Assembly: GCF_014643835.1 (NCBI RefSeq)
Contig: NZ_BMKD01000004.1
Coordinates: forward strand, 124,001 to 188,000
Direction: 5' to 3'
DNA: 64,000 nt
DNA from: Mucilaginibacter rubeus
GTDB lineage: Bacteria > Bacteroidota > Bacteroidia > Sphingobacteriales > Sphingobacteriaceae
Shown: positions 13,242 through 34,336 of the stretch, piece after piece
Layout of the letters: every line of letters begins with the position of its first letter
Numbering within the stretch: the first letter of the stretch is position 1
The notes under the pieces: generated by a model
Seen by the model: the letters and a program-made list of their open reading frames with translations, nothing else
The model's database searches: none
What the model was told of the DNA's origin: nothing
Position numbers and translations under genes: made by a program

Positions 13242-14636
13242 ATGCAAATAAATAAATATCGTTCCCACATAATTATCTCATTACTTAGTCTTTTTTTGTT
13301 GTTCTTCTGTATCAATCTCTATTTCAAAGAGCGAGAGGTTCAACAACAGCGCACAGTAGCTGACCCTGAATTAAAATCAGCAGACAACGAGGTTAACTCA
13401 AAGGATGACAAATTAAGTGCAACCACACAGGAACAAAAGCAACCAGAACAAAAACAACCAGAACAAAAACCTATCCGCAATGCCATTGCAAGCCTGGCAA
13501 AAAAAGAGGATATTCAGGATAGTTCAGATCCCAGCACCCTGAAAAAACTTTTAATTAAAAAAGGCATTTATTTTGGCGATTTTTTGGGGAACGAAGATGT
13601 TGAACTCGCAGCTCCGCGTCCGGCGAACTTCTTAACACAAATTAACCAGTATTTTAATTTGTATACCGTGCCTGCCTGGTTTCATCATGTGGAACTCAAA
13701 AATGGCCAGTATGATTTTAGGGGCATTGATGAAGTTGCAGACTTTGCTGTAGCGCATGGCGCCAAAATACAAATGCAAAGCCCTGTGTGGTGGTATGTGC
13801 CTGATTGGGTAAAAAAAGGAAACTTTACGCCTGATGAGCTTAAAAATATCCTAAAAAATCATATCCAGGCTGTAATGCGCCATTATAGGGATAAATATCC
13901 GGGAGCCGTGCTTTCATGGGCCATTGTCAATGAATCGATGAGTGACAGCCCCGATTTTAATCCAAAATATTCGTTGCCAAACGGACTTAGAAGTAACTTA
14001 CCAATATGGAATGTAATTCACAAGCCCGGTTCAAATGACCCTACTGATTATATTCAATTAGCATTTGAATGGGCGCACGAAGCTGATCCTACAGCGAAAC
14101 TTTATTGGACCGAATTTAACGTTGAATACAAAGGTTTTAAAATGGACAGATGGTTTAATATCGTTAAACAACTAAAAGATAAAGGCGTTCCTATTAATGG
14201 CGTGGGTTTCCAAACTCATTTGTATCAGGGATATAACCATCCATTTAGCGAGTTAACTGAAAACATGGACAGGTTTGCAGCTATTGGCCTTACAAGCGAA
14301 ATAACTGAGTTAGACGCAATTATGTCAACTACATCACCAGTTGACCCACCTTTATTCAGGCCAACAATTATCGGTTCACCAAACCAGTTTGACTTTGATA
14401 AGCAGGGAAAATTATTTGCCGGCGTAATTTCAGCCTGCATCAAGGCCCAAAAATGTGATGCTATAATATTATGGGGCGAATGGGACCCAACCAGCTCAAC
14501 AAATACCCAATACAAAAATAAATTAACAGGAAATCCCCTTGGCAAGATGCACGCCAATATATTAGATGATAATTTGAAGCCTAAACCAGCGGTTGCCGCT
14601 ATGGTTAATGCTGCCCGGCAACTCATATCTAAATAA
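13242..14636 (+). CDS. Membrane-anchored GH10 endo-xylanase-like hydrolase
   Basis: A 464-residue protein with a short basic N-terminus, one hydrophobic segment (about residues 10-27, signal anchor), a linker with repeated EQKQP units (residues ~63-77) and a GH10 barrel from ~105 on. Catalytic residues are recognisable: acid/base Glu near 231 in WAIVNES (usual form WDVVNE) and nucleophile Glu near 356 in ITELD; WWYVPDWV lies in the substrate cleft. It is on the opposite strand at the edge of the polysaccharide locus and ends in a strong terminator. It may trim or release the exported polymer; true xylanase activity is not assured. Confidence 0.85.
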   Translation: MQINKYRSHIIISLLSLFLLFFCINLYFKEREVQQQRTVADPELKSADNEVNSKDDKLSATTQEQKQPEQKQPEQKPIRNAIASLAKKEDIQDSSDPSTLKKLLIKKGIYFGDFLGNEDVELAAPRPANFLTQINQYFNLYTVPAWFHHVELKNGQYDFRGIDEVADFAVAHGAKIQMQSPVWWYVPDWVKKGNFTPDELKNILKNHIQAVMRHYRDKYPGAVLSWAIVNESMSDSPDFNPKYSLPNGLRSNLPIWNVIHKPGSNDPTDYIQLAFEWAHEADPTAKLYWTEFNVEYKGFKMDRWFNIVKQLKDKGVPINGVGFQTHLYQGYNHPFSELTENMDRFAAIGLTSEITELDAIMSTTSPVDPPLFRPTIIGSPNQFDFDKQGKLFAGVISACIKAQKCDAIILWGEWDPTSSTNTQYKNKLTGNPLGKMHANILDDNLKPKPAVAAMVNAARQLISK

Positions 14637-18818: not shown

Positions 18819-19493
18819 TTAAGATTCCCGCTTTTTTGCCAAAACTGTTACAGCACCACCATTTCCATCTTCCACAAATAAAGGGGCTACAATTACCCAT
18901 TCAAATTCATGATACGCTTCGTTTAACGCCATATCCTCTATTACAAGAATACTTTTCTTATCGCCGCCCGGGCAAAGAAACTGCCTGTGGCTTTCCCTTC
19001 CCTGTGGTCGGAACTTCCATGAAGTAAGGGATATAAAATCAAAGCCTACACATCTTAGTTCAGGGTATTCGGTTCTGAAGTAATCTGCCAGTTCCGGCGC
19101 CAACCCAGGGTTATCGTTCCAGTACTTATCGTCATTCCTGTAATTTTCAAATCCAGTACGTATCAGCAAAAGCTCAACATTTTTATTAATTGGTGGTAAA
19201 TTTTCAAAATCACTGATGTTTATCAATTTTGCCTCGCTGCAAAGGATTTCTACCGTAACAACGTTTTTATAAAAATATTCTTCCAGGGGTATTTCAAAAG
19301 TCTTTTTTCCGTCCTGGCAAAAATGAAAAGGCGAATCGATATGGGTACCTATATGGTTATTTGAAAATATCCAGCAAGCTGTGTTTGCTGTTTCACCTTT
19401 TAAAATTGACGAATTATCCCTTATAAATATGCGATCCTTATTTCCGTACGACGGCGTATTTTGTGAGATAATATGTGAAAGGCGGATATTCAT
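18819..19493 (-). CDS. Cyclase-family metal-dependent hydrolase
   Basis: 224 residues of the cyclase/kynurenine-formamidase-like fold (PF04199). The metal-binding motif is intact in NNHIGTHIDSPFHF (H-x-G-T-H-x-D-x-P-x-H-F) near residues 46-59, and a later ...GFDFISLTS... segment fits the family. Family members hydrolyse N-formyl amides, cyclic amides or lactones. In this sugar-biosynthesis block it may open a lactone or remove an N-formyl group; this is inferred from neighbours only. It is 84 bases after the YhcH-like gene. Confidence 0.75.
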   Translation of the reverse strand: MNIRLSHIISQNTPSYGNKDRIFIRDNSSILKGETANTACWIFSNNHIGTHIDSPFHFCQDGKKTFEIPLEEYFYKNVVTVEILCSEAKLINISDFENLPPINKNVELLLIRTGFENYRNDDKYWNDNPGLAPELADYFRTEYPELRCVGFDFISLTSWKFRPQGRESHRQFLCPGGDKKSILVIEDMALNEAYHEFEWVIVAPLFVEDGNGGAVTVLAKKRES

Positions 19494-19577
19494 AGGGATA
19501 GATTTATTTTAAACATGAAATTTGGGCAGCAACAATGTTGATTAATATATAGCACCTGTTAACAGATTACCAACACG

Positions 19578-20030
19578 CTAAATAGCTACCTTAATAGTAA
19601 TTTTTTTAATAAACTCTGGCTGATTAACGTAATGCTGAGGGCCGTGTCCGTCTTCGGGAAACATTATAGCAAATATTCCGTTCCCTATATCAACATGAGT
19701 ACCCTGGCTTGATGGATCTTTATAGAAGGTACGGTCATGCTCTTCACTATACGGAATATTTACATTCATACCTTCAATTGGCGACCATTTAACCCTTTCA
19801 AGGCCCCTTATAGGATATTGAATGTCAATAACGTGTTTATGAGCTTCATATCCCCTTTCAAAGTTTTCAACGGTATTATATTCGCTAACAATCGCTTTTA
19901 CGTTATCGTTAATTTTATAAACACCAACTTCAATATCCGGAGTGGCGTTTTGTAAATATTGAAGACCAGCATATATATCCTCAGAAATGCCTTTATATGT
20001 ATCAATATTCTTTAATTTATCAACTATCAT
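19578..20030 (-). CDS. YhcH/YjgK/YiaL (NanQ-like) protein
   Basis: 150 residues with the small beta-barrel DUF386 pattern: residues FERGYEAHKHVIDIQYPIRG and YSEEHDRTFYKD, plus the near-C-terminal FPEDGHGPQHYV with metal-ligand-type His. E. coli NanQ of this family speeds up anomerisation of sialic acid; other members sit in galactosidase or xylulose operons. Here it lies 7 bases after the cyclase homologue of DHQ synthase, which suggests it handles the ring form or anomer of a keto sugar in the pathway. The substrate is unknown. Confidence 0.75.
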   Translation of the reverse strand: MIVDKLKNIDTYKGISEDIYAGLQYLQNATPDIEVGVYKINDNVKAIVSEYNTVENFERGYEAHKHVIDIQYPIRGLERVKWSPIEGMNVNIPYSEEHDRTFYKDPSSQGTHVDIGNGIFAIMFPEDGHGPQHYVNQPEFIKKITIKVAI

Positions 20031-20037
20031 TGTATAA

Positions 20038-21102
20038 TTAGTTTAATTCGTTTGTAAAATACTCGTTTAGCCATCCAACAAATTGTTCATCCATCGGCCT
20101 TAAATCTTTGAATATTTTGCCGTAACCTTTATTAAGGATCAAGCCCAATGTTTTACCTACGTTCTTTTTGTCTTTGCTTAATGCTACCGTAAATTTATCA
20201 AGCGAGATATCAGTAATAGAAGTTCCCTCCCACACTTGTTTTAATAACTCCCTTATGTTTTGACGCACCGAATTATCAATGTATCCAAGCTTTACTGATA
20301 CAAAATTGGCCATATCCATACCGTAACTTACAGCAATTCCGTGAGGTATCCGATAATTAGTTAATGATTCGATAGCATGCCCGAATGAATGACCGTAATT
20401 AAATACAAGGCGCTCGTTTTTGTCAAATTCATCCCGCTCAATGTAGCCCTTCTTTATTTCCAGGCTTCTGTTAATTATACCGGCTAAAACTTTTTTATCT
20501 GTTAGGGCCTGCGCATATTCATTTTTAAACCTTGTAAAATCCTCTTCGCCCGATACAATGAAATAGTGACACATTTCGCCCATTCCTGATTTCAAATCCC
20601 ACAATGAAAGGGTATCTAAAAATTCAAGGTTAATAAATATTTGGTTAGGCGGATAAAAACCTCCCAGCTGATTTTTATATTGATTAAAATTGATAGAGGT
20701 TTTACTTCCTATGCAGCTATCGCCCTGGGCAAGTAATGATGTTGGGAAAAAATACCAATCAACCCCACGGTACATGATTGACGCTATAAACGCTGTAGCA
20801 TCCTGGGTTATACCGCCGCCAATGGCAACCAACCTATGATTTTTTCTGAAACCATTATCTATCAGGCTTTCAATTATAGGCATCACCCCCTGGTAACTCT
20901 TAACTTTTTCGGAGGCATCAATGCCAATGTGCCAATACAAATCAAGTACCGGCTGAAGCAGATCTTTATATAGCTCCTTTATTTTGTTATCAATGATAAT
21001 TACGTCGCCTTCTTTAAGTTCCTTAAGTAAAACTCCTTGCGTATCATCTATAAACTGAACACCGTAATCGTGAACAATTGATTTTATTTTAAAATTATAC
21101 AT
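20038..21102 (-). CDS. Sugar-phosphate cyclase homologue (3-dehydroquinate synthase-like)
   Basis: 354 residues with the DHQ-synthase fold: NAD motif AIGGGITQDATAFIAS (from ~94), PTSLLAQGDS (Asp128), SKTSIN (Lys134), KNQLGG (Lys143, Asn144), Glu176, and NYGHSFGHAIE with His238 and His242. Arg231 and a Lys at 217/218 fit the positions that bind the substrate carboxylate in AroB. Unusual: the SG-x-x-E-x-x-K motif reads SGMGEMCH, with His179 for the normally invariant Lys. The ATG at 21102 has GGAGG 9 bases upstream, inside the end of the SDR gene, so I prefer it to the longer frame from 21123. A role in a special sugar, not in aromatic synthesis, is likely. Confidence 0.8.
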   Translation of the reverse strand: MYNFKIKSIVHDYGVQFIDDTQGVLLKELKEGDVIIIDNKIKELYKDLLQPVLDLYWHIGIDASEKVKSYQGVMPIIESLIDNGFRKNHRLVAIGGGITQDATAFIASIMYRGVDWYFFPTSLLAQGDSCIGSKTSINFNQYKNQLGGFYPPNQIFINLEFLDTLSLWDLKSGMGEMCHYFIVSGEEDFTRFKNEYAQALTDKKVLAGIINRSLEIKKGYIERDEFDKNERLVFNYGHSFGHAIESLTNYRIPHGIAVSYGMDMANFVSVKLGYIDNSVRQNIRELLKQVWEGTSITDISLDKFTVALSKDKKNVGKTLGLILNKGYGKIFKDLRPMDEQFVGWLNEYFTNELN

Positions 21103-21856
21103 TGGTATATCCTCCGTCAACAATTATATTTTGACCTGTTAAATAACTATTTAAATTGCTGCTTAAAAAAAGTACAACGTTAGCAATTTCTACAGGTTGA
21201 GCCATCCTGTTCATAGGGATAACTTCAGTTAGTTTTTTCAAATCTTCGGCCGAGTTTGTGGTAGCTGTAAGCTCCGTAAGCGTAAAACCGGGCCCAACTG
21301 CATTTACCAGGATATCATACTTACCCAATTCAATTGCCAACGTTTTGGTAAGCCCAACAATGGCATTTTTATTGGTGGTGTAAACAGAACGCCCCGGCCT
21401 GGTAATAGTGCTCCAGATAGAGGTGATATTAACAATGCGGCCATAACCGTTTTTTTTCATCAGTTTGCTAACTTCACGGCAAAGCACGTACGGTCCCTTT
21501 ACATTAACATTATGCAGCAAATCAAAATCGGCATCGGTAGTATCCACGTTGAGCGCAACCTTGTTAATCCCCGCATTATTGATAAGCACATCTATCTTAT
21601 CTAATTCATTCAGTTTCAACAAAAACCTTTCAACTGATTCAGGACGGGTGAAATCAAGCTGTAAATAACTGATCCTCTTAACGGTATTTTCATTATTTAA
21701 ACGCTCTATTTCGGAAGCATTAGTTCCGGTTAAAATTACAGAACAACCGGCTTCAAGAAAGCGTTCGGCTATCGCGTTGCCAATGCCCCTTGTACCGCCG
21801 GTTATAAGTGCCACTTTACCAGTCAGATCAATCTTTATGTTAGATATGCTATCCAT
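21095..21856 (-). CDS. Short-chain dehydrogenase/reductase (FabG-like)
   Basis: 253-residue classical SDR: cofactor motif ITGGTRGIGNAIAE at ~16-29, NNAGINK, the catalytic Ser in ITSIWS and Tyr-Lys in YTTNK (Y-x3-K), and the C-terminal YLTGQNIIVDGGYTNV. It overlaps the start of the cyclase homologue by 8 bases and follows the SIS gene by 9 bases, so it belongs to one translationally coupled block. It probably reduces or oxidises a ring or chain hydroxyl of the intermediate. Not a fatty-acid enzyme by context. Confidence 0.85.
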   Translation of the reverse strand: MDSISNIKIDLTGKVALITGGTRGIGNAIAERFLEAGCSVILTGTNASEIERLNNENTVKRISYLQLDFTRPESVERFLLKLNELDKIDVLINNAGINKVALNVDTTDADFDLLHNVNVKGPYVLCREVSKLMKKNGYGRIVNITSIWSTITRPGRSVYTTNKNAIVGLTKTLAIELGKYDILVNAVGPGFTLTELTATTNSAEDLKKLTEVIPMNRMAQPVEIANVVLFLSSNLNSYLTGQNIIVDGGYTNV

Positions 21857-21865
21857 AAAGAATAA

Positions 21866-22471
21866 TTAGTTAGCAGTAAGTGCTAAAAACTCCTCGTCGG
21901 TTGAAAGGTAGTTTACTATTATATGATTTAAGATCATATGCACATCTTCAATCGGGCCGTAATCTCCTTTAGGATTTGGTGTATACAGTGGTATAGATGA
22001 TATTTCATTTAATTTTCCACCCAAAAAGCCTACGAATGCAATTGTAGTACCGCCTAATTCATTAGCAAACTCAGCAGCTTTAACCAAATTTGGTGAATTT
22101 CCACTTGCCGATATAGCGATCAAAATATCGCCTGAAACAAACTGACCGCGCATTTGCTCAACAAAAACATCGTCAAAGTTATTGTCATTACCTATTGCGG
22201 TAATCATAGGTACGTTATCGGTTAAAGCGATAATCTTAGGGCGGAACTTTGAGAAATAACGAACAAAGAACCTGAAGTCGGCCTGCATGTGAGATGCTGT
22301 AGCGGCGCTCCCGCCATTACCAACAACATAAATGGTATTGCCGTTTTTAAAAGCAGTGATCATAGCAGTAATTACCTGCTCAAGTTTTGCAACTTCAATT
22401 TTATTTAAAATATCAGTCAAACGGGCGATATAATCACCCAGGTAGTTTTTAACTTTCTCTTGTCTTTCCAT
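21866..22471 (-). CDS. GmhA-like SIS-domain phosphosugar isomerase
   Basis: 201 residues with the SIS fold: VVGNGGSAATASHMQADF (about 50-67) and AISASGNSPNLVKAAEFA (about 118-135), as in sedoheptulose-7-phosphate isomerase GmhA and DiaA. The closing EDVHMILNHIIVNYL segment is typical of GmhA-like proteins. No heptose kinase/adenylyltransferase (HldE) or GmhB is visible in the window, so it may serve a dedicated C7 sugar phosphate that the neighbouring cyclase homologue also uses. The exact substrate is inferred. Confidence 0.85.
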   Translation of the reverse strand: MERQEKVKNYLGDYIARLTDILNKIEVAKLEQVITAMITAFKNGNTIYVVGNGGSAATASHMQADFRFFVRYFSKFRPKIIALTDNVPMITAIGNDNNFDDVFVEQMRGQFVSGDILIAISASGNSPNLVKAAEFANELGGTTIAFVGFLGGKLNEISSIPLYTPNPKGDYGPIEDVHMILNHIIVNYLSTDEEFLALTAN

Positions 22472-22501
22472 TGTAATAGATTTTTATCTTATTGTTACTA
22501 A

Positions 22502-23494
22502 TTAAAATTCTTTTTGTTCGTATACTTTATCTATGATACGCATGAGTTTGTAAGCATCCTCCGAATTACCGATGGCTATCGGCTTATCAGCAGTAATTGA
22601 ATCAAAAAAATGATCCATTTCGTAACGCCAGCTGTTGTTATCAACATACTTGGTTACTATTTCATCTTTCCAGGTAGCCGCAGGCGCCGTCGACCTGTTT
22701 TTGGCAATGGAGAGTGTTTCTTCGCCATATGACATTGATGATGTTATAAGCCCGTTTAATACCATATAACCTTTTTCAAGGAATATCTCTAACGAAAACA
22801 AATGGCGCCATTGCGACATGGTAGAGTGTAATGAAGCTACTTTGCCCGTTGCCGATTCTTTAAGGATCACAAAAGCGTTATCCTCAACATCCATGTGCCA
22901 ATAAAGGTTTGAAACCTCAGCTTTAACAACATCAAAATCACCTGAGAGGTACAGGAACAAATCAAGCATATGAATACCCTGATCCATTAAGATACCACCG
23001 CCGGCTAATTCCTTTTTAGCCCTCCATTGGTTAAAATAATCGCTGGTTACACTTTTTCCGTAACGGCCACGCAACCATAATACTTTTCCATATTCACCGC
23101 TGTCAATCAGCTTTTTGATATGCATAACGCTGTCATGATGACGGTGATTAAAACCGTACATCAATTTTTTGCCGCTGGCTGCTTCGGCTTTTTGTATCTC
23201 TAATATATCAGCACCGGTAAAAGCGGGTGGTTTTTCGCAAAAAACATGCTTTCCGGCATTCAGGGCCCGTATGGTTAAATCTTTGTTTAAAAAGTTGGGG
23301 GTGCAAACTATGATCGCATCTATATCTGCATGATTTATAATTTCCTCATGGCTGATATTGGGGATACCTTTTATTTCAGTTTCTCCATTGGGCTCAGATA
23401 CAGCTACTACAACGCCTTTTTTAATTTCATCGATAGCCTGGTGCCGGATTTTTCCCATTACACCATAACCTATTATACCAATTTTGTAATTCAT
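22502..23494 (-). CDS. Gfo/Idh/MocA-family oxidoreductase
   Basis: 330 residues: N-terminal Rossmann motif IGIIGYGVMGKIRHQAI, the family EKP motif in VFCEKPPAFTG (about residues 93-103), and a C-terminal substrate domain with GGGILMDQGIHMLDLFLYL carrying the conserved D-x3-H. Such enzymes oxidise ring hydroxyls of cyclitols (myo-inositol, scyllo-inosose) or sugar C3 hydroxyls. Its place between the GmhA-like and 2-hydroxyacid dehydrogenase genes, with 8-30 base gaps, ties it to the same pathway. Confidence 0.87.
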   Translation of the reverse strand: MNYKIGIIGYGVMGKIRHQAIDEIKKGVVVAVSEPNGETEIKGIPNISHEEIINHADIDAIIVCTPNFLNKDLTIRALNAGKHVFCEKPPAFTGADILEIQKAEAASGKKLMYGFNHRHHDSVMHIKKLIDSGEYGKVLWLRGRYGKSVTSDYFNQWRAKKELAGGGILMDQGIHMLDLFLYLSGDFDVVKAEVSNLYWHMDVEDNAFVILKESATGKVASLHSTMSQWRHLFSLEIFLEKGYMVLNGLITSSMSYGEETLSIAKNRSTAPAATWKDEIVTKYVDNNSWRYEMDHFFDSITADKPIAIGNSEDAYKLMRIIDKVYEQKEF

Positions 23495-23502
23495 AGTATG
23501 TA

Positions 23503-24420
23503 TTATTTTAGTGCGTTAATTAAGTTTTTAACAGCGTCAATTTCCATTAATAGTTTTCCTTCTTCGGCGTATGAACCAAGGTGAGGGGTAAGCACTACAT
23601 TATCCAGATCGCATAAAGGGCCCGAATATGGCTCAGAAGAGAAAACGTCAATAGCTGCTCCGGTTAATTTATTAGCTGCAAGGGCATTATATAAAGCTTC
23701 TTCATCAACAATACCACCGCGGGATATATTTACCAGGAACGCGCCTGTTTTCATCAAATCAATCTCTTTAGCACCTATTACCGCAGATCCGTCTTCATTG
23801 CCTGGTACATGAACTGTAACGACATCGGCTTTGGTTAACAATGTATCAAAATCAACCAATTCAACTCCGTTATCTGTTGCCCAAGCAGCATCAGCGTAAG
23901 GGTCATAACCAATTACCGGGTTCCCTATCCCCCTGAACAGTTGCGATACCAGTTTACCAATACGTCCTAAACCTACAACTCCAACAACTTTATTAAGAAA
24001 AAGGTTGCCTACCTGCTTTTTCCATACTTTATTTTTAAGATCAGCATGAGCCTGTGGTATTTTTCGCAATAATGACAGTGTCATAGCCAGTGTCAATTCT
24101 GCAACTGCCCTGGTTGGGCCATCGGGGGTATTGGTTACAATAATCCCTTTTTCGGCTGCGTATTTTAAATCTACGCTATCCATGCCTATTCCAACGCGGC
24201 TGATACATTTCAACTTAGGCAGTGCATCCATTACCCTGGCGGTAAGTGGTTCTACACCGGCTACTATACCAATGCAGTCTGCAGCCAACTCTATAACTTC
24301 ATCTTCTGTTAGCTTTCTTCCGTAAGGGTTATTGATTACTTCATAACCATTTTGGAGAAGCAACTCTACAGGTTCATTTCCAACTTGGCCAAAAGACGAG
24401 GGCGAGGTTAATATTTTCAT
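23503..24420 (-). CDS. D-2-hydroxyacid dehydrogenase (SerA-like)
   Basis: 305 residues without the ACT domain of true SerA. NAD motif VGVVGLGRIGKLVSQLF, the catalytic Arg in NISRGGIVDEEAL, the Glu in DVFSSEP and His in LTPHLGSYAEE are all present. It would interconvert a D-2-hydroxyacid and a 2-keto acid; in this block the substrate could be a sugar acid such as a phosphorylated aldonate. Gap to the next gene is 8 bases; the NeuA-like gene lies 62 bases upstream. Confidence 0.85.
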   Translation of the reverse strand: MKILTSPSSFGQVGNEPVELLLQNGYEVINNPYGRKLTEDEVIELAADCIGIVAGVEPLTARVMDALPKLKCISRVGIGMDSVDLKYAAEKGIIVTNTPDGPTRAVAELTLAMTLSLLRKIPQAHADLKNKVWKKQVGNLFLNKVVGVVGLGRIGKLVSQLFRGIGNPVIGYDPYADAAWATDNGVELVDFDTLLTKADVVTVHVPGNEDGSAVIGAKEIDLMKTGAFLVNISRGGIVDEEALYNALAANKLTGAAIDVFSSEPYSGPLCDLDNVVLTPHLGSYAEEGKLLMEIDAVKNLINALK

Positions 24421-24482
24421 AGTATAAATTATCGTTCTTTTATTACAATTGTTATGTTGACAAAATGCAATGGTGTCCTTAA

Positions 24483-25199
24483 TTACTTGCTCCAGTACTT
24501 GGGCGTTGCATTTTGGGTTGACTGATATTTCCTGGCAATTAATAGCGCCTCGGCAAGCCTGAAATCTTTTTCCTCGCTTACCTTCACAGCTACCAATGGG
24601 TCAAGCGGCCAAAAAAGCCTGTTCACCCCAAAATATCCGCTTCGGTTGTTTTCGTATAGTTTTCTAAAAACATTTGCGTTCCATATAGTTACAGCCCAAT
24701 TACATATTGTAATCACCCTATTATTCTGCGACGGGGCAAGCGGGCCGTCAACTACAATGTTTATCGGTTCATTATCAACAAATGACTGCATTTGTGTTTG
24801 TGTACATCCAATAAGGGTGTCTGCATCTGATGCCGAATATGCCTCGAGCGCACCTTGGATATCAGCTTCCCGGATCAGAGGACAAACAGGATTAATAAGC
24901 ACCAGTGTATCCGGATTTTTAGCATTAATAAAATCATAAGTAAAATCTTCGCCGGTTGCGTCGTCACCACCCAATAATGCGGGGCGCCGGTATACTTTAC
25001 AATTTAAACTTTCAGCTATTGCCGCAAGTGAATCATCATCGGTGTTCACATAAACCTCATCCAATAGGTTGCAACTTAAAGCACTTTCAATGCTATAGGC
25101 AATCATTGGTTTACCATCCATGTACCTAAGGTTTTTTGACTGTACCCTTTTACTTCCCCCTCTTGCGGGGATATGAGCTATTACTTTTCCTAATTTCAT
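24483..25199 (-). CDS. NeuA-like CMP-sugar synthetase (cytidylyltransferase)
   Basis: 238-residue acylneuraminate cytidylyltransferase-family protein. The N-terminal nucleotide motif is IPARGGSKRVQSKNLRYMDG (about 10-29), followed by VYVNTDDDSLAAIAE and VLINPVCPLIREADI. NeuA-type enzymes make CMP-activated keto sugars or related acids. No NeuB-type condensing enzyme or NeuC is in the window, so the substrate may be the product of the adjoining cyclase/dehydrogenase set instead of an ordinary nonulosonic acid. It probably opens this sub-block of genes. Confidence 0.85.
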   Translation of the reverse strand: MKLGKVIAHIPARGGSKRVQSKNLRYMDGKPMIAYSIESALSCNLLDEVYVNTDDDSLAAIAESLNCKVYRRPALLGGDDATGEDFTYDFINAKNPDTLVLINPVCPLIREADIQGALEAYSASDADTLIGCTQTQMQSFVDNEPINIVVDGPLAPSQNNRVITICNWAVTIWNANVFRKLYENNRSGYFGVNRLFWPLDPLVAVKVSEEKDFRLAEALLIARKYQSTQNATPKYWSK

Positions 25200-31882: not shown

Positions 31883-32416
31883 TTATTTTTTTATAAAATC
31901 AGGATGAGAATTATCTTTTTCAGAAATTATCGGATTGGTTATGCCCCAGTTAATACCAAATAACGGATCATTCCACCTTATGCCCCTTTCGCTGCCAGGA
32001 GTATAGAAGTTTGAAACCTGGTAAAAGATCTCAGAATTATCCTCATTTGTTAGATACCCGTGTGCAAATCCTTCAGGTACATATATCATCTTGTAATTAT
32101 CTCCGGTTAATTCAACCGATATATGTTCGCAATAAGTAGCTGATTCAGGGCGGATATCAATAATAACATCAGTTATGGCGCCTCTTATACAGCGTATAAG
32201 TTTGGCTTCTTCAGCGCCGTCAATTTGGAAATGCATCCCCCTGAGTGTGTTTTTGTGTATTGATTTAGAAAGGTTGCTTTGAACCATGTTATATTTCAAT
32301 CCCATCTTTTTAAACTCATCAGCACAAAATGCGCGGGCAAAAAAACCACGGTCATCCTGCCTTAAAGAAAGGTCAATTATGTAAGCTCCTTTTAATTTTG
32401 TTTCGGTAAATATCAT
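31883..32416 (-). CDS. dTDP-4-dehydrorhamnose 3,5-epimerase family protein (CDP-sugar branch)
   Basis: 177-residue cupin-type epimerase: RGFFARAFCADEFKKMG, NTLRGMHFQIDGAEEAKLIR (catalytic His in GMHF), IDIRPESATYCEH and YVPEGFAHGYLT. It is clearly diverged from rfbC at 12.3 kb (RGLHLQKGR there). Between rfbG and a reductase it most likely epimerises CDP-4-keto-6-deoxyglucose at C3 and/or C5, as in pathways to CDP-6-deoxy-L-altrose-type sugars. 31 bases from rfbG. Confidence 0.83.
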   Translation of the reverse strand: MIFTETKLKGAYIIDLSLRQDDRGFFARAFCADEFKKMGLKYNMVQSNLSKSIHKNTLRGMHFQIDGAEEAKLIRCIRGAITDVIIDIRPESATYCEHISVELTGDNYKMIYVPEGFAHGYLTNEDNSEIFYQVSNFYTPGSERGIRWNDPLFGINWGITNPIISEKDNSHPDFIKK

Positions 32417-32447
32417 TTTTCTATTATTATATAAAACTATTATACAC

Positions 32448-33524
32448 TTAACCTAAAAAATAGCGCTCAATTTGTTTATAGCTAACCTCTTTCATATCCA
32501 AATTATCGCGGTAAGCCTTGGTCCACTCAACGATATTTCCTAACGCGGTTTCTATTCCCCATTTAGGATACCATCCGAGCAAAGTTTTGGCTTTTGAGCA
32601 ATCCAGTTTTAAATAATTGGCTTCGTGTGGGTTATTGCCGGTGTCCAATCCAAACTGAGCACCATCACCCCATAGCGAACATATCTTATCAATTATCCAG
32701 CCTACGTTCTTCGCGTCAGAGTCATCAGGGCCAAAATTCCATCCTTCAGCGTACTTAACACCATCCTGATACAATTTTTCGGCTAACGTTAAATAACCTG
32801 AAAGCGGCTCAAGAACATGTTGCCATGGCCTAATGGCATTAGGGTTTCTTATTACAACTTTTTCGTTATTAGTGATAGCACGAATAAAATCAGGTATTAA
32901 ACGATCAACTGCCCAATCGCCGCCGCCAATCACATTCCCAGCCCTGCCAGATGCCAGGCCAACTCCATGTTGACTATATGCCTCCGGATTGAAAAAAGAA
33001 TTTCTAAAAGATGATGTCACTAATTCCGAGCAACCTTTGCTATTTGAATATGGATCATAGCCGCCCATCGGTTCATCTTCTCTGTATCCCCAAACCCATT
33101 CTTTATTTTCATAGCATTTATCAGTGGTTACATTTACTACCGCTTTTACACTTTTTGTGTTCCTTATAGCTTGTAAAAGATTTACGGTGCCCATCACGTT
33201 AACCTCGTAAGTTTCTACAGGGTTTTTATATGATTCTCTGACCAGGGGTTGAGCAGCCATATGTATAACAACTTCAGGTTTCACCTCATCCATAAATTTC
33301 GCAAGGGCGTTATAATTCCTGATGTCATTTATTTCAGAAGTTACAAGTTCGTTCACACGAGCGATAGAAAACAAACTCGGAGTTGTTGGAGAAGGCAGCG
33401 AATAACCGTAAACTTTGGCACCTAACCTATTAAGTACTAAGCATAACCACGAACCTTTAAAACCAGTGTGCCCGGTTACAAGCACTCTTCTGTTTTTATA
33501 AAAGCCGTTAAACAAATTTTCCAT
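32448..33524 (-). CDS. rfbG: CDP-glucose 4,6-dehydratase
   Basis: 358 residues: VLVTGHTGFKGSWLCLVLNR (NAD motif), HMAAQPLVRESYKNPV, NVTTDKCYENKEW, and DPYSNSKGCSEL with the catalytic Y-x3-K, all diagnostic of RfbG rather than RfbB or Gmd. Converts CDP-glucose to CDP-4-keto-6-deoxyglucose. It follows rfbF by 41 bases. No rfbH-type 3-dehydrase is present, so the pathway stays at the 6-deoxy level and does not give 3,6-dideoxyhexoses from genes in this window. Confidence 0.95.
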   Translation of the reverse strand: MENLFNGFYKNRRVLVTGHTGFKGSWLCLVLNRLGAKVYGYSLPSPTTPSLFSIARVNELVTSEINDIRNYNALAKFMDEVKPEVVIHMAAQPLVRESYKNPVETYEVNVMGTVNLLQAIRNTKSVKAVVNVTTDKCYENKEWVWGYREDEPMGGYDPYSNSKGCSELVTSSFRNSFFNPEAYSQHGVGLASGRAGNVIGGGDWAVDRLIPDFIRAITNNEKVVIRNPNAIRPWQHVLEPLSGYLTLAEKLYQDGVKYAEGWNFGPDDSDAKNVGWIIDKICSLWGDGAQFGLDTGNNPHEANYLKLDCSKAKTLLGWYPKWGIETALGNIVEWTKAYRDNLDMKEVSYKQIERYFLG

Positions 33525-33565
33525 AGTGTATTTTTAGTATAAGTACTTATCTATTATAGAAAAAA

Positions 33566-34336
33566 CTACCATTTAATCCATGAGGCAGTACCTGAAGCAA
33601 TCATTTCTTCGAGTTGCGCTTTATCTCTCACGGTATCCATAGGTTTCCAGAAACCGTGATGTTTGTAGGCGAACAATTGGCCGTCTTTCGCAAGATTCTC
33701 GAGTGGTGCCCGTTCAAATATTGTAGTATCATCTTCAAGATAATCGATAACTTCAGGCTGACAAACAAAGAAACCACCATTACTCCATCCTCCATCGCCT
33801 TTCGGTTTCTCCTGGAACGACAAAATCTTTTGGCTATCATCAAAGTTTATCAACCCAAAACGGCCTTCGGGTTGTACAGAAGTGAGCGTTATTAATTTGC
33901 CGTGAGATTCATGAAAAGCTACCAGTTCGTTTACATCGATGTCGGCAACACCGTCACCATAGGTTAGCATAAATGGTTCGCCGTTTAGGTATTCTTTTAC
34001 ACGTTTTAAACGGCCACCTGTCATTGTTTCTAAACCGGTATCAACCAATGTAATATTCCATGGCTCAGCTTGGGTATCGTGAACCTTTACATCGTTATTT
34101 GCCAGGTTGATTGTTACGTTGGATTTATGCAGGTAATAATTGGCAAAATATTCCTTTATCAAGTAGCCTTTATAACCGAGGCAAACAACAAAGTCTGTAA
34201 ACCCGTAGTGAGAATAAATTTTCATTATATGCCATAATATTGGCATACCCCCGATTTCAACCATTGGTTTTGGCTTAAGTATCGTTTCTTCTGATAATCG
34301 GGTTCCTAATCCACCAGCTAATATTACTACTTTCAT
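33566..34336 (-). CDS. rfbF: Glucose-1-phosphate cytidylyltransferase
   Basis: 256 residues: VVILAGGLGTRLSEETILKP, KPMVEIGGMPILWHIMKIY, TGGRLKRVKEYL and LTYGDGVADIDV are the RfbF signature. Makes CDP-glucose from CTP and glucose-1-phosphate and so starts the CDP-6-deoxyhexose branch. It lies 27 bases after the acyltransferase gene and upstream of rfbG in transcription order. Confidence 0.95.
   Translation of the reverse strand: MKVVILAGGLGTRLSEETILKPKPMVEIGGMPILWHIMKIYSHYGFTDFVVCLGYKGYLIKEYFANYYLHKSNVTINLANNDVKVHDTQAEPWNITLVDTGLETMTGGRLKRVKEYLNGEPFMLTYGDGVADIDVNELVAFHESHGKLITLTSVQPEGRFGLINFDDSQKILSFQEKPKGDGGWSNGGFFVCQPEVIDYLEDDTTIFERAPLENLAKDGQLFAYKHHGFWKPMDTVRDKAQLEEMIASGTASWIKW

Follow-up and report, generated by a model that had tools for sequence, protein, structure and literature searches.

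A mix-and-match gene cassette of Mucilaginibacter in which a phosphatase and a dehydroquinate synthase-like module exchange places, with a proposed role in an acidic cell-surface sugar

In the 64,000 nucleotides of Mucilaginibacter rubeus analysed here (contig NZ_BMKD01000004.1, positions 124,001 to 188,000, hereafter the window), eight consecutive minus-strand open reading frames (ORFs) at 18819..25199, with intergenic gaps of 7-84 bp, encode a homologue of synthases of sugars activated with cytidine monophosphate (CMP), hereafter the CMP-transferase, a SerA-like dehydrogenase, a Gfo/Idh/MocA oxidoreductase, a SIS-domain isomerase, a short-chain dehydrogenase/reductase (SDR), a homologue of dehydroquinate synthase (DHQS) that belongs to the NCBIfam family TIGR04425, a YhcH/NanQ-type protein and a PF04199 hydrolase. 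A preliminary description made from the letters of the window had named this set, and Pfam finds all of its families. The genes appear to be one version of a mix-and-match cassette with which soil and other bacteria make an acidic cell-surface sugar of unassigned identity. In sister cassettes, the SDR and TIGR04425 genes are replaced by a single phosphatase gene, and the two kinds of module have been exchanged repeatedly between close relatives. The product that we propose, at slightly less than an even chance for the model as a whole, is a CMP-activated 2-keto sugar acid of the ulosonic-acid type, the phosphate end of which would be made into a methyl group by the SDR and a cyclase homologue that does not cyclise.

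The exchange is seen in a search with the SIS protein of the window. In the 395 genomes of a phylum-wide sample there are five matches at E 1e-42, four of them in genomes with a TIGR04425 protein above the family cut-off. The fifth genome is G001, whose only TIGR04425 match lies below that cut-off; it is the nearest relative among the compared genomes, with 30% of sampled 31-mers in common, and its cassette sits in a setting similar to that of the window. The gene order in G001 is CMP-transferase, SerA (85% identity), Gfo (90%), SIS (92%), a gene for 250 amino acids, YhcH, hydrolase (76%) and DUF115 (55%), and the gene in the slot after SIS codes for an inositol-monophosphatase-family protein (PF00459, 9e-52). 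The SIS gene is present in 13 of the 149 genomes of the genus that were searched, and the slot that follows it holds the SDR and TIGR04425 genes in five of the 13 Mucilaginibacter cassettes and a PF00459 phosphatase in the other eight (one slot phosphatase was tested directly against PF00459 and the others were assigned by tblastn). Within 20 kb of each of the 13 cassettes, none has both TIGR04425 and the phosphatase, and none has neither. The SerA, Gfo and SIS proteins of these cassettes are 66-95% identical to those of the window. At the DNA level, the alignment of the window with G001, of the phosphatase type, starts at SerA, stops where SIS ends and resumes at the hydrolase gene; with G1106, of the cyclase type, it is unbroken from SerA into DUF115 and beyond. 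The DNA of the CMP-transferase gene of the window aligns with neither genome, so this slot has been exchanged too. In a tree of 22 Gfo rows, in which the row of L071 is a distant paralogue on a very long branch, the slot changes four times, and at least three of these changes are forced by well-supported branches. Because the SDR-cyclase pair and the phosphatase occupy the slot alternately, the pair seems to remove phosphate by elimination.

The cassette recurs beside polysaccharide genes in other Bacteroidota, together with the CMP-transferase, in keeping with the suggestion of the preliminary description that the set is a pathway unit. Loci were collected from a contig scan with the window protein (eight loci) and from hidden Markov model searches of 301, 395, 92, 79 and 295 genomes, samples that overlap, as well as from the SIS searches in the phylum sample (395 genomes) and the genus (149); the duplicates L100 (of L003) and L012/L042 (of L005) are left out of all counts. 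Families were called by tblastn with one query per family at E 1e-8, and absences mean little in L006, L072, L074 and L078, which are short or cut stretches. Group A comprises 17 loci, the window included, amongst them the Mucilaginibacter contigs L003 and L005 and Dyadobacter luticola L004. All eight families occur together in 10 of the 17, and the SerA-like, Gfo and SIS genes with overlapping SDR and cyclase-homologue genes in 16. By family, Gfo, SIS and SDR are present in all 17 loci, SerA and the CMP-transferase in 16 each (L006 is a 5-kb contig), YhcH in 13, the PF04199 hydrolase and DUF115 in 12 each and an HpcH/HpaI aldolase in 11. The DUF115 gene is counted into the cassette because it recurs with the set. 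The SDR and cyclase-homologue ORFs overlap in 17/17 loci; in the window the overlap is 8 bp if the cyclase homologue starts at ATG 21102 (sequence: ATGTATAA). As a control, 12 cassette queries give no match in 25 loci of 2.9-4 kb centred on AroB-like matches below the TIGR04425 cut-off, four of which are placed with AroB in the tree described below. In 15 like-sized windows around the TIGR04425 genes of 15 of the 17 group-A loci, the same families are found as follows: SDR 15, SIS 12, YhcH 11, CMP-transferase 11, Gfo 8, PF04199 6 and SerA 2. The co-occurrence goes beyond chance. TIGR04425 itself is rare and patchy, since it scores above its cut-off in only 4 of 301 family-sample genomes and 9 of 395 phylum-sample genomes. 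In both trees, the cyclase and Gfo proteins of L004 (6529-15367) nest among those of Mucilaginibacter, a placement that suggests horizontal transfer between families. Searches of plasmid records with group-A and group-B proteins show no TIGR04425-like neighbourhood among the matches listed (60 of 115 in one search); these matches are below 60% identity, and the annotated ones are AroB or other cyclases.

The key member of the exchanged module is the TIGR04425 protein (20038..21102, minus strand, DHQ_synthase and DHQS_C domains; the ORF extends to 21123, and ATG 21102 is the probable start), accompanied by the SDR, a ketoreductase (21095..21856, minus strand, adh_short_C2). The window protein scores 448.9 bits against TIGR04425, above the cut-off of 400, and 254.9 bits against the aroB model TIGR01357, below the cut-off of 305. 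All 17 group-A proteins pass the TIGR04425 cut-off, the lowest at 401.8 bits, and 8/8 further group-A proteins scanned against both models pass TIGR04425 and fail aroB. NCBIfam lists TIGR04425 (P_lya_rel_AroB) as a hypothetical equivalog, 'AroB-related putative sugar phosphate phospholyase (cyclizing)', a name in which we read 'cyclizing' as resting on homology. Identity to AroB rows is 26-29%. In a tree of 41 sugar phosphate cyclase rows, group A forms one clade (support 99/98) and all TIGR04425-type proteins come together (96/93), separate from AroB, from DOIS and from the cyclases of sedoheptulose 7-phosphate (S7P), which are a branch of their own (99/98). The AroB rows do not form a single clade, one AroB-like row from Fusobacterium adjoining TIGR04425 (90/93); DOIS, L045, Nostoc and others have long branches. 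Grouping with genuine AroB, as the only DHQS of the genome, had been named in the preliminary description as fatal to a pathway. Neither the tree nor the cut-offs place the protein with AroB, and a second match of AroB strength is present in 5/5 family-sample genomes with a TIGR04425-type protein (four with that protein above its cut-off, G163 with it below; the match scores 236.3 bits in G292 and 231.8 in G235), a sample of relatives outside which the window's own genome lies.

The pocket of these proteins resembles that of DHQS. We compared the 11 residues that bind 3-deoxy-D-arabino-heptulosonate 7-phosphate (DAHP) in the S. aureus and M. tuberculosis enzymes, as listed in PMC6262012. Group A keeps 10 of the 11 in 17/17 proteins, with His in place of Lys197, and the group-B proteins introduced below keep 11/11 in 8/8. 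Positions are given in what we take to be the A. nidulans DHQS numbering, with which the spacing agrees. The S7P-cyclase rows (4/4, three taken by record annotation and one, Nostoc, guessed) differ at five pocket positions, 250, 264, 268, 275 and 356: Lys250 becomes Met, Arg264 is lost, His275 becomes Pro and Lys356 is lost, and TIGR04425 has none of these changes. Nor does it have those of the single DOIS row, which differs at 264, 268 and 356 (Ala/Glu/Asn); a second DOIS candidate, L055, had no usable ORF match and is left out. The zinc ligands are kept, and the Glu of the HGE motif is replaced (HGI/V/Q) in TIGR04425-type proteins. Because the DAHP-pocket residues are kept and the S7P and DOIS changes are absent, the substrate probably carries a carboxylate, as a phosphorylated 2-keto sugar acid would.

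The genes that presumably finish the pathway also bear on the product. The CMP-transferase (24483..25199, minus strand, CTP_transf_3; PseF/NeuA/KdsB-like) scores 74.7 bits against PF02348 (gathering cut-off 22.6) and reaches no NCBIfam cut-off. It is of a type of its own, CT, 39-42% identical to the type CTc of relatives; CT and CTc occur without the HpcH/HpaI aldolase, and a further type, CTb, occurs with it. All four combinations of CMP-transferase type and slot type exist, and the CTc of the phosphatase-type locus L084 has 82-83% identical copies in the cyclase-type loci L005 and L097. The YhcH protein, a putative anomerase (19578..20030, minus strand, YhcH/DUF386), falls short of the NanQ model NF040884 (72.8 bits, cut-off 160) and passes that of the YhcH/YjgK/YiaL subfamily (81.7 bits, cut-off 45.5). 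A tree of 26 YhcH rows splits (100/99) into a clade of 14 rows found only with the cyclase, to which the window protein belongs, and a clade with all eight phosphatase cassettes and second copies from four CTb cyclase loci. This module-specific clade suggests a sugar with an anomeric centre.

The gene content, its conservation, the exchange of phosphatase and cyclase, and the pocket residues are observations, from which we infer every reaction and product of the following model. The SIS protein would isomerise a ketose phosphate, probably C7 (a chain length suggested by the likeness to GmhA and by DHQS geometry), to an aldose phosphate; the Gfo/Idh enzyme would oxidise C1 to a lactone; the PF04199 hydrolase as a proposed lactonase, or water, would open it; and the SerA-like enzyme would oxidise C2 of the phosphorylated 2-hydroxy acid to give a 2-ketoaldonate (2-ulosonate) phosphate. 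In the sister cassettes, the phosphatase would then simply take off the phosphate. In the window, this task would fall to the TIGR04425 homologue together with its coupled SDR, by NAD-dependent oxidation near the phosphate end, elimination of the phosphate and reduction of the ketone, most likely without forming a carbocycle, so that the sugar would be terminal-deoxy and end in CH3 instead of CH2OH. The module-specific YhcH anomerase, the CMP-transferase and a DUF115 transferase would finish the pathway. We prefer a product with an anomeric centre, altered only at its far end, because the same CMP-transferase type follows the plain phosphatase and because the SDR-cyclase module brings its own anomerase. 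Residues to which we assign the roles usual in their families are conserved: the SDR Tyr/Lys in 18/18, the Gfo EKP in 25/25, the SerA Arg in 22/22 and the hydrolase HxGTHxD..H in 16/16 proteins.

A second gene context is compatible with a non-cyclising reaction. Group B consists of eight loci in which a TIGR04425-type protein lies beside a YerE-like thiamine diphosphate (ThDP) enzyme (8/8), with exactly one of a NeuB-like synthase (two loci) or an HpcH/HpaI-like aldolase (six), and with SDR in 7/8, RfbF and RfbG in 5/8 and RfbH in 5/8; the families were verified on L073 and L066. According to PMC12247030, ErwE, a YerE-like enzyme, joins hydroxy 2-keto acids to CDP-4-keto-3,6-dideoxyglucose, and MMAR_2332, which takes part in caryophyllose synthesis, prefers donors of a similar kind. 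Caryophyllose is 3,6-dideoxy-4-C-(D-altro-1,3,4,5-tetrahydroxyhexyl)-D-xylo-hexopyranose, according to PMC5706390, and we infer that its branch donor is a 3,7-dideoxy-hept-2-ulosonate, that is, a DAHP-like acid with the C7 phosphate end now CH3 and the ring unclosed. In group B, the NeuB-like or aldolase enzyme would join pyruvate or phosphoenolpyruvate to erythrose 4-phosphate, the TIGR04425 protein would remove the C7 phosphate without ring closure, and the SDR would then reduce C6. Taking groups A and B together, we favour a phospholyase function for TIGR04425, with 2-ulosonate phosphates as substrates. The wider proposal is more tentative than the model for the window: TIGR04425 may be a non-cyclising branch of the DHQS superfamily that makes methyl-ended 2-ulosonic acids with an SDR, both for CMP-sugars, where its place can be taken by a phosphatase to give the hydroxymethyl sugar instead, and for a caryophyllose-type 3,7-dideoxy-heptulosonate donor. 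G163 has a group-B-like locus, with its cyclase homologue below the cut-off, about 20 kb from the cassette L102.

Several observations weigh against a non-cyclising TIGR04425 and the scheme built on it. To our knowledge, those sugar phosphate cyclases that have been characterised do cyclise. TIGR04425 proteins retain almost every residue needed for the full DHQS reaction, the exceptions being Lys197 (His in group A) and the HGE Glu; the latter is replaced in an ordinary AroB row (B. finegoldii, Tyr) and in the Nostoc row (His) as well. The enol intermediate of DHQS can close its ring by itself in solution, so the avoidance of a carbocycle needs explaining. In G163 (L102), a single cassette has retained an SDR alongside the phosphatase; 4, 5 and 5 of the 17 group-A loci lack YhcH, the hydrolase and DUF115, respectively; the pocket of the SIS protein differs from that of GmhA, leaving its substrate unassigned; and the scheme does not account for the HpcH/HpaI aldolase found in CTb-type cassettes. 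In group B, five of eight proteins score above the TIGR04425 cut-off and three below (two at 397-399 bits and L045 at 303), caryophyllose production by these loci or these Bacteroidota is a presumption from gene content, and the term dehydroquinate was not found in the main text of three papers on mycobacterial lipooligosaccharide genes.

In the main rival, the acid is made first as above and TIGR04425 closes the 2-ulosonate 7-phosphate to a quinate-like carbocycle, the SDR reduces the ketone, and CMP is attached to the carboxylate-bearing tertiary carbinol, which corresponds to an ulosonic acid in carba form. This rival has the precedent of the superfamily (PMC5133447), and it agrees with the zinc ligands, the 10 of 11 pocket residues and the word 'cyclizing' in the family name; the carba-analogue would also be nearly isosteric with the sugar and so compatible with a shared CTc. 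Against it, a carbocycle lacks an anomeric centre, which is at odds with a YhcH specific to the module, unless YhcH acts on the substrate of the cyclase; a carbocycle is no glycosyl donor in the usual way; and in group B it could not be the 2-keto-acid donor of the ThDP enzyme. We regard this rival as unlikely, though a serious one. The carbocyclic sugar of the preliminary description is possible and is not favoured, given that a phosphatase replaces the cyclase and SDR beside the same CMP-transferase type.

The chemistry that the preliminary description had given for such a carbocycle fares worse. It had both a GmhA-like SIS protein and an EEVS-type cyclase use S7P, the C7 cyclitol being redox-tailored and activated with CTP. 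Membership at the Pfam level agrees with this, and GmhA is the closest of the solved structures to the SIS protein (21866..22471, minus strand, SIS_2), which fails the gmhA cut-offs. At the GmhA sites Asp61/His64/Glu68/Gln175/His183, counted on the 2xbl chain and presumably the functional ones, 23 of 25 cassette SIS rows have Thr/His/Asp/Glu/His; the exceptions are L067 (Ser at 64) and L077 (Ile at 61, Leu at 183), so that 25/25 differ from GmhA at 61, 68 and 175, and GmhA proper is not supported. In the tree, TIGR04425 is not part of the S7P-cyclase branch, nor does it show any of the substitutions typical of that branch, and the replacement of cyclase and SDR by a phosphatase, with the rest unchanged, is difficult to reconcile with a cyclitol as central intermediate. 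On the pocket residues and the tree we reject this reading, which we consider improbable. A duplicated AroB that supplies dehydroquinate for decorating the polymer with an aromatic or quinate-like group is more improbable still, and we reject it on cut-offs and tree: the DHQS-like pocket, the 26-29% identity and the adjoining Fusobacterium row speak for it, and the failed aroB and passed TIGR04425 cut-offs, the separate clade, the second AroB-strength match in relatives and the phosphatase swap, which it leaves unexplained, speak against it. In G001, a second DHQ-synthase-family protein of 432 amino acids (L002, contig 27, 913-2211, minus strand) passes PRK06203 ('3-dehydroquinate synthase') at 569.7 bits and fails the aroB cut-off; it branches with the S7P cyclases and has His/Ser/Asp at 250/264/268.

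The association of the aldolase with the CMP-transferase type also holds genome-wide. At E 1e-20, an HpcH/HpaI aldolase is found in 6/6 CTb and 0/7 CTc Mucilaginibacter genomes (Fisher p 0.0006, ignoring kinship); the Gfo tree offers only two independent pairs, both concordant, too few for a test. Its presence in 11 of the 17 group-A loci had made the aldolase a candidate maker of a common precursor, in the manner of NeuB or KdsA, and it was dropped as a core step because it is absent from 7/7 CTc genomes. In L071 (14393-15526), a CMP-transferase homologue is fused to a C-terminal cupin domain (PF07883), and a 52%-identical relative of this protein is the sole CMP-transferase found in L077. 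For the DUF115/MptE-like protein (PF01973; 17938..18783, minus strand), the ninth gene, just downstream of the eight, 7/7 phmmer matches are sialyltransferases with weak scores (E 0.03-0.09 over about 36 residues), and a profile search yields no sialyltransferase, its match being a pterin pyrophosphokinase at E 0.08; these are weak hints that it could be the transferase of the CMP-sugar. The remaining members are the SerA-like D-2-hydroxyacid dehydrogenase (23503..24420, minus strand, 2-Hacid_dh and 2-Hacid_dh_C, covering the first part of the phosphoglycerate dehydrogenase model), the Gfo/Idh/MocA oxidoreductase (22502..23494, minus strand, GFO_IDH_MocA) and the hydrolase (18819..19493, minus strand) of PF04199, a family named "cyclase".

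Compared with known systems, the window protein and the other 16 of group A belong to TIGR04425, a family whose name puts forward a sugar-phosphate phospholyase without indicating a pathway; what is new here is the two gene contexts, A and B, and the phosphatase swap. With AroB and the sugar phosphate cyclases (EEVS, DDGS, DOIS, EboD), TIGR04425 shares the fold family, the zinc ligands and the pocket for a DAHP-type acid, and it differs in its separate clade, in His at Lys197 (group A) and in HGI/V/Q for HGE. EboD is described in PMC5133447 as another new clade of the superfamily, encoded in a six-gene operon. YerE-type CDP-sugar pathways, including that of caryophyllose, resemble group B in RfbF/G/H and the ThDP enzyme (PMC12247030 and PMC5706390), to which group B adds the SDR and the TIGR04425-type protein; the window has CMP instead of CDP activation and no ThDP enzyme among the cassette genes, its only link being the shared SDR-cyclase pair. 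The window also resembles the CMP-ulosonic acid pathways, of which those of 3-deoxy-D-manno-octulosonic acid (Kdo) and sialic, pseudaminic and legionaminic acids are known, in its KdsB/NeuA/PseF-type CMP-transferase and its NanQ/YhcH-type protein. It differs in that the operon lacks a NeuB/KdsA-type condensing enzyme and would reach the 2-keto acid by SIS, Gfo and SerA oxidation instead. In the open-licence PMC literature, where absence is weak evidence, no paper names TIGR04425, and among the papers listed there is no description of the cassette and nothing on the origin of the caryophyllose side chain. If the non-cyclising model is true, the DHQS scaffold has a branch that serves as a phosphate-removing 'deoxygenase' for surface sugars, a new way of making deoxy sugar acids that might also account for the C6 branch of caryophyllose. 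Read more cautiously, the cassettes are a natural experiment in which the same three core genes are combined with a phosphatase or a DHQS-like module.

The surroundings of the cassette look like a Wzx/Wzy-type polysaccharide locus, with a Polysacc_synt flippase, a Wzz/kinase-type protein and glycosyltransferases; the Wzy_C match is below threshold (23.1 bits against 31.7). The same locus has CDP-glucose genes at 31883-34336 (minus strand), where RfbF, RfbG and an RmlC-type epimerase each score above their own NCBIfam cut-off, and the same polymer is predicted from them to contain a sugar derived from a CDP-6-deoxyhexose. RfbH has no tblastn match in the window, unlike in G001. At the edge of the polysaccharide locus, on the opposite strand, lies a glycoside hydrolase family 10 (xylanase-type) gene (13242-14636, plus strand). 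The cassettes of L003 and L084, too, have such a gene nearby on the opposite strand (3/3 tested, including the window), and the enzyme may belong to these polysaccharide loci.

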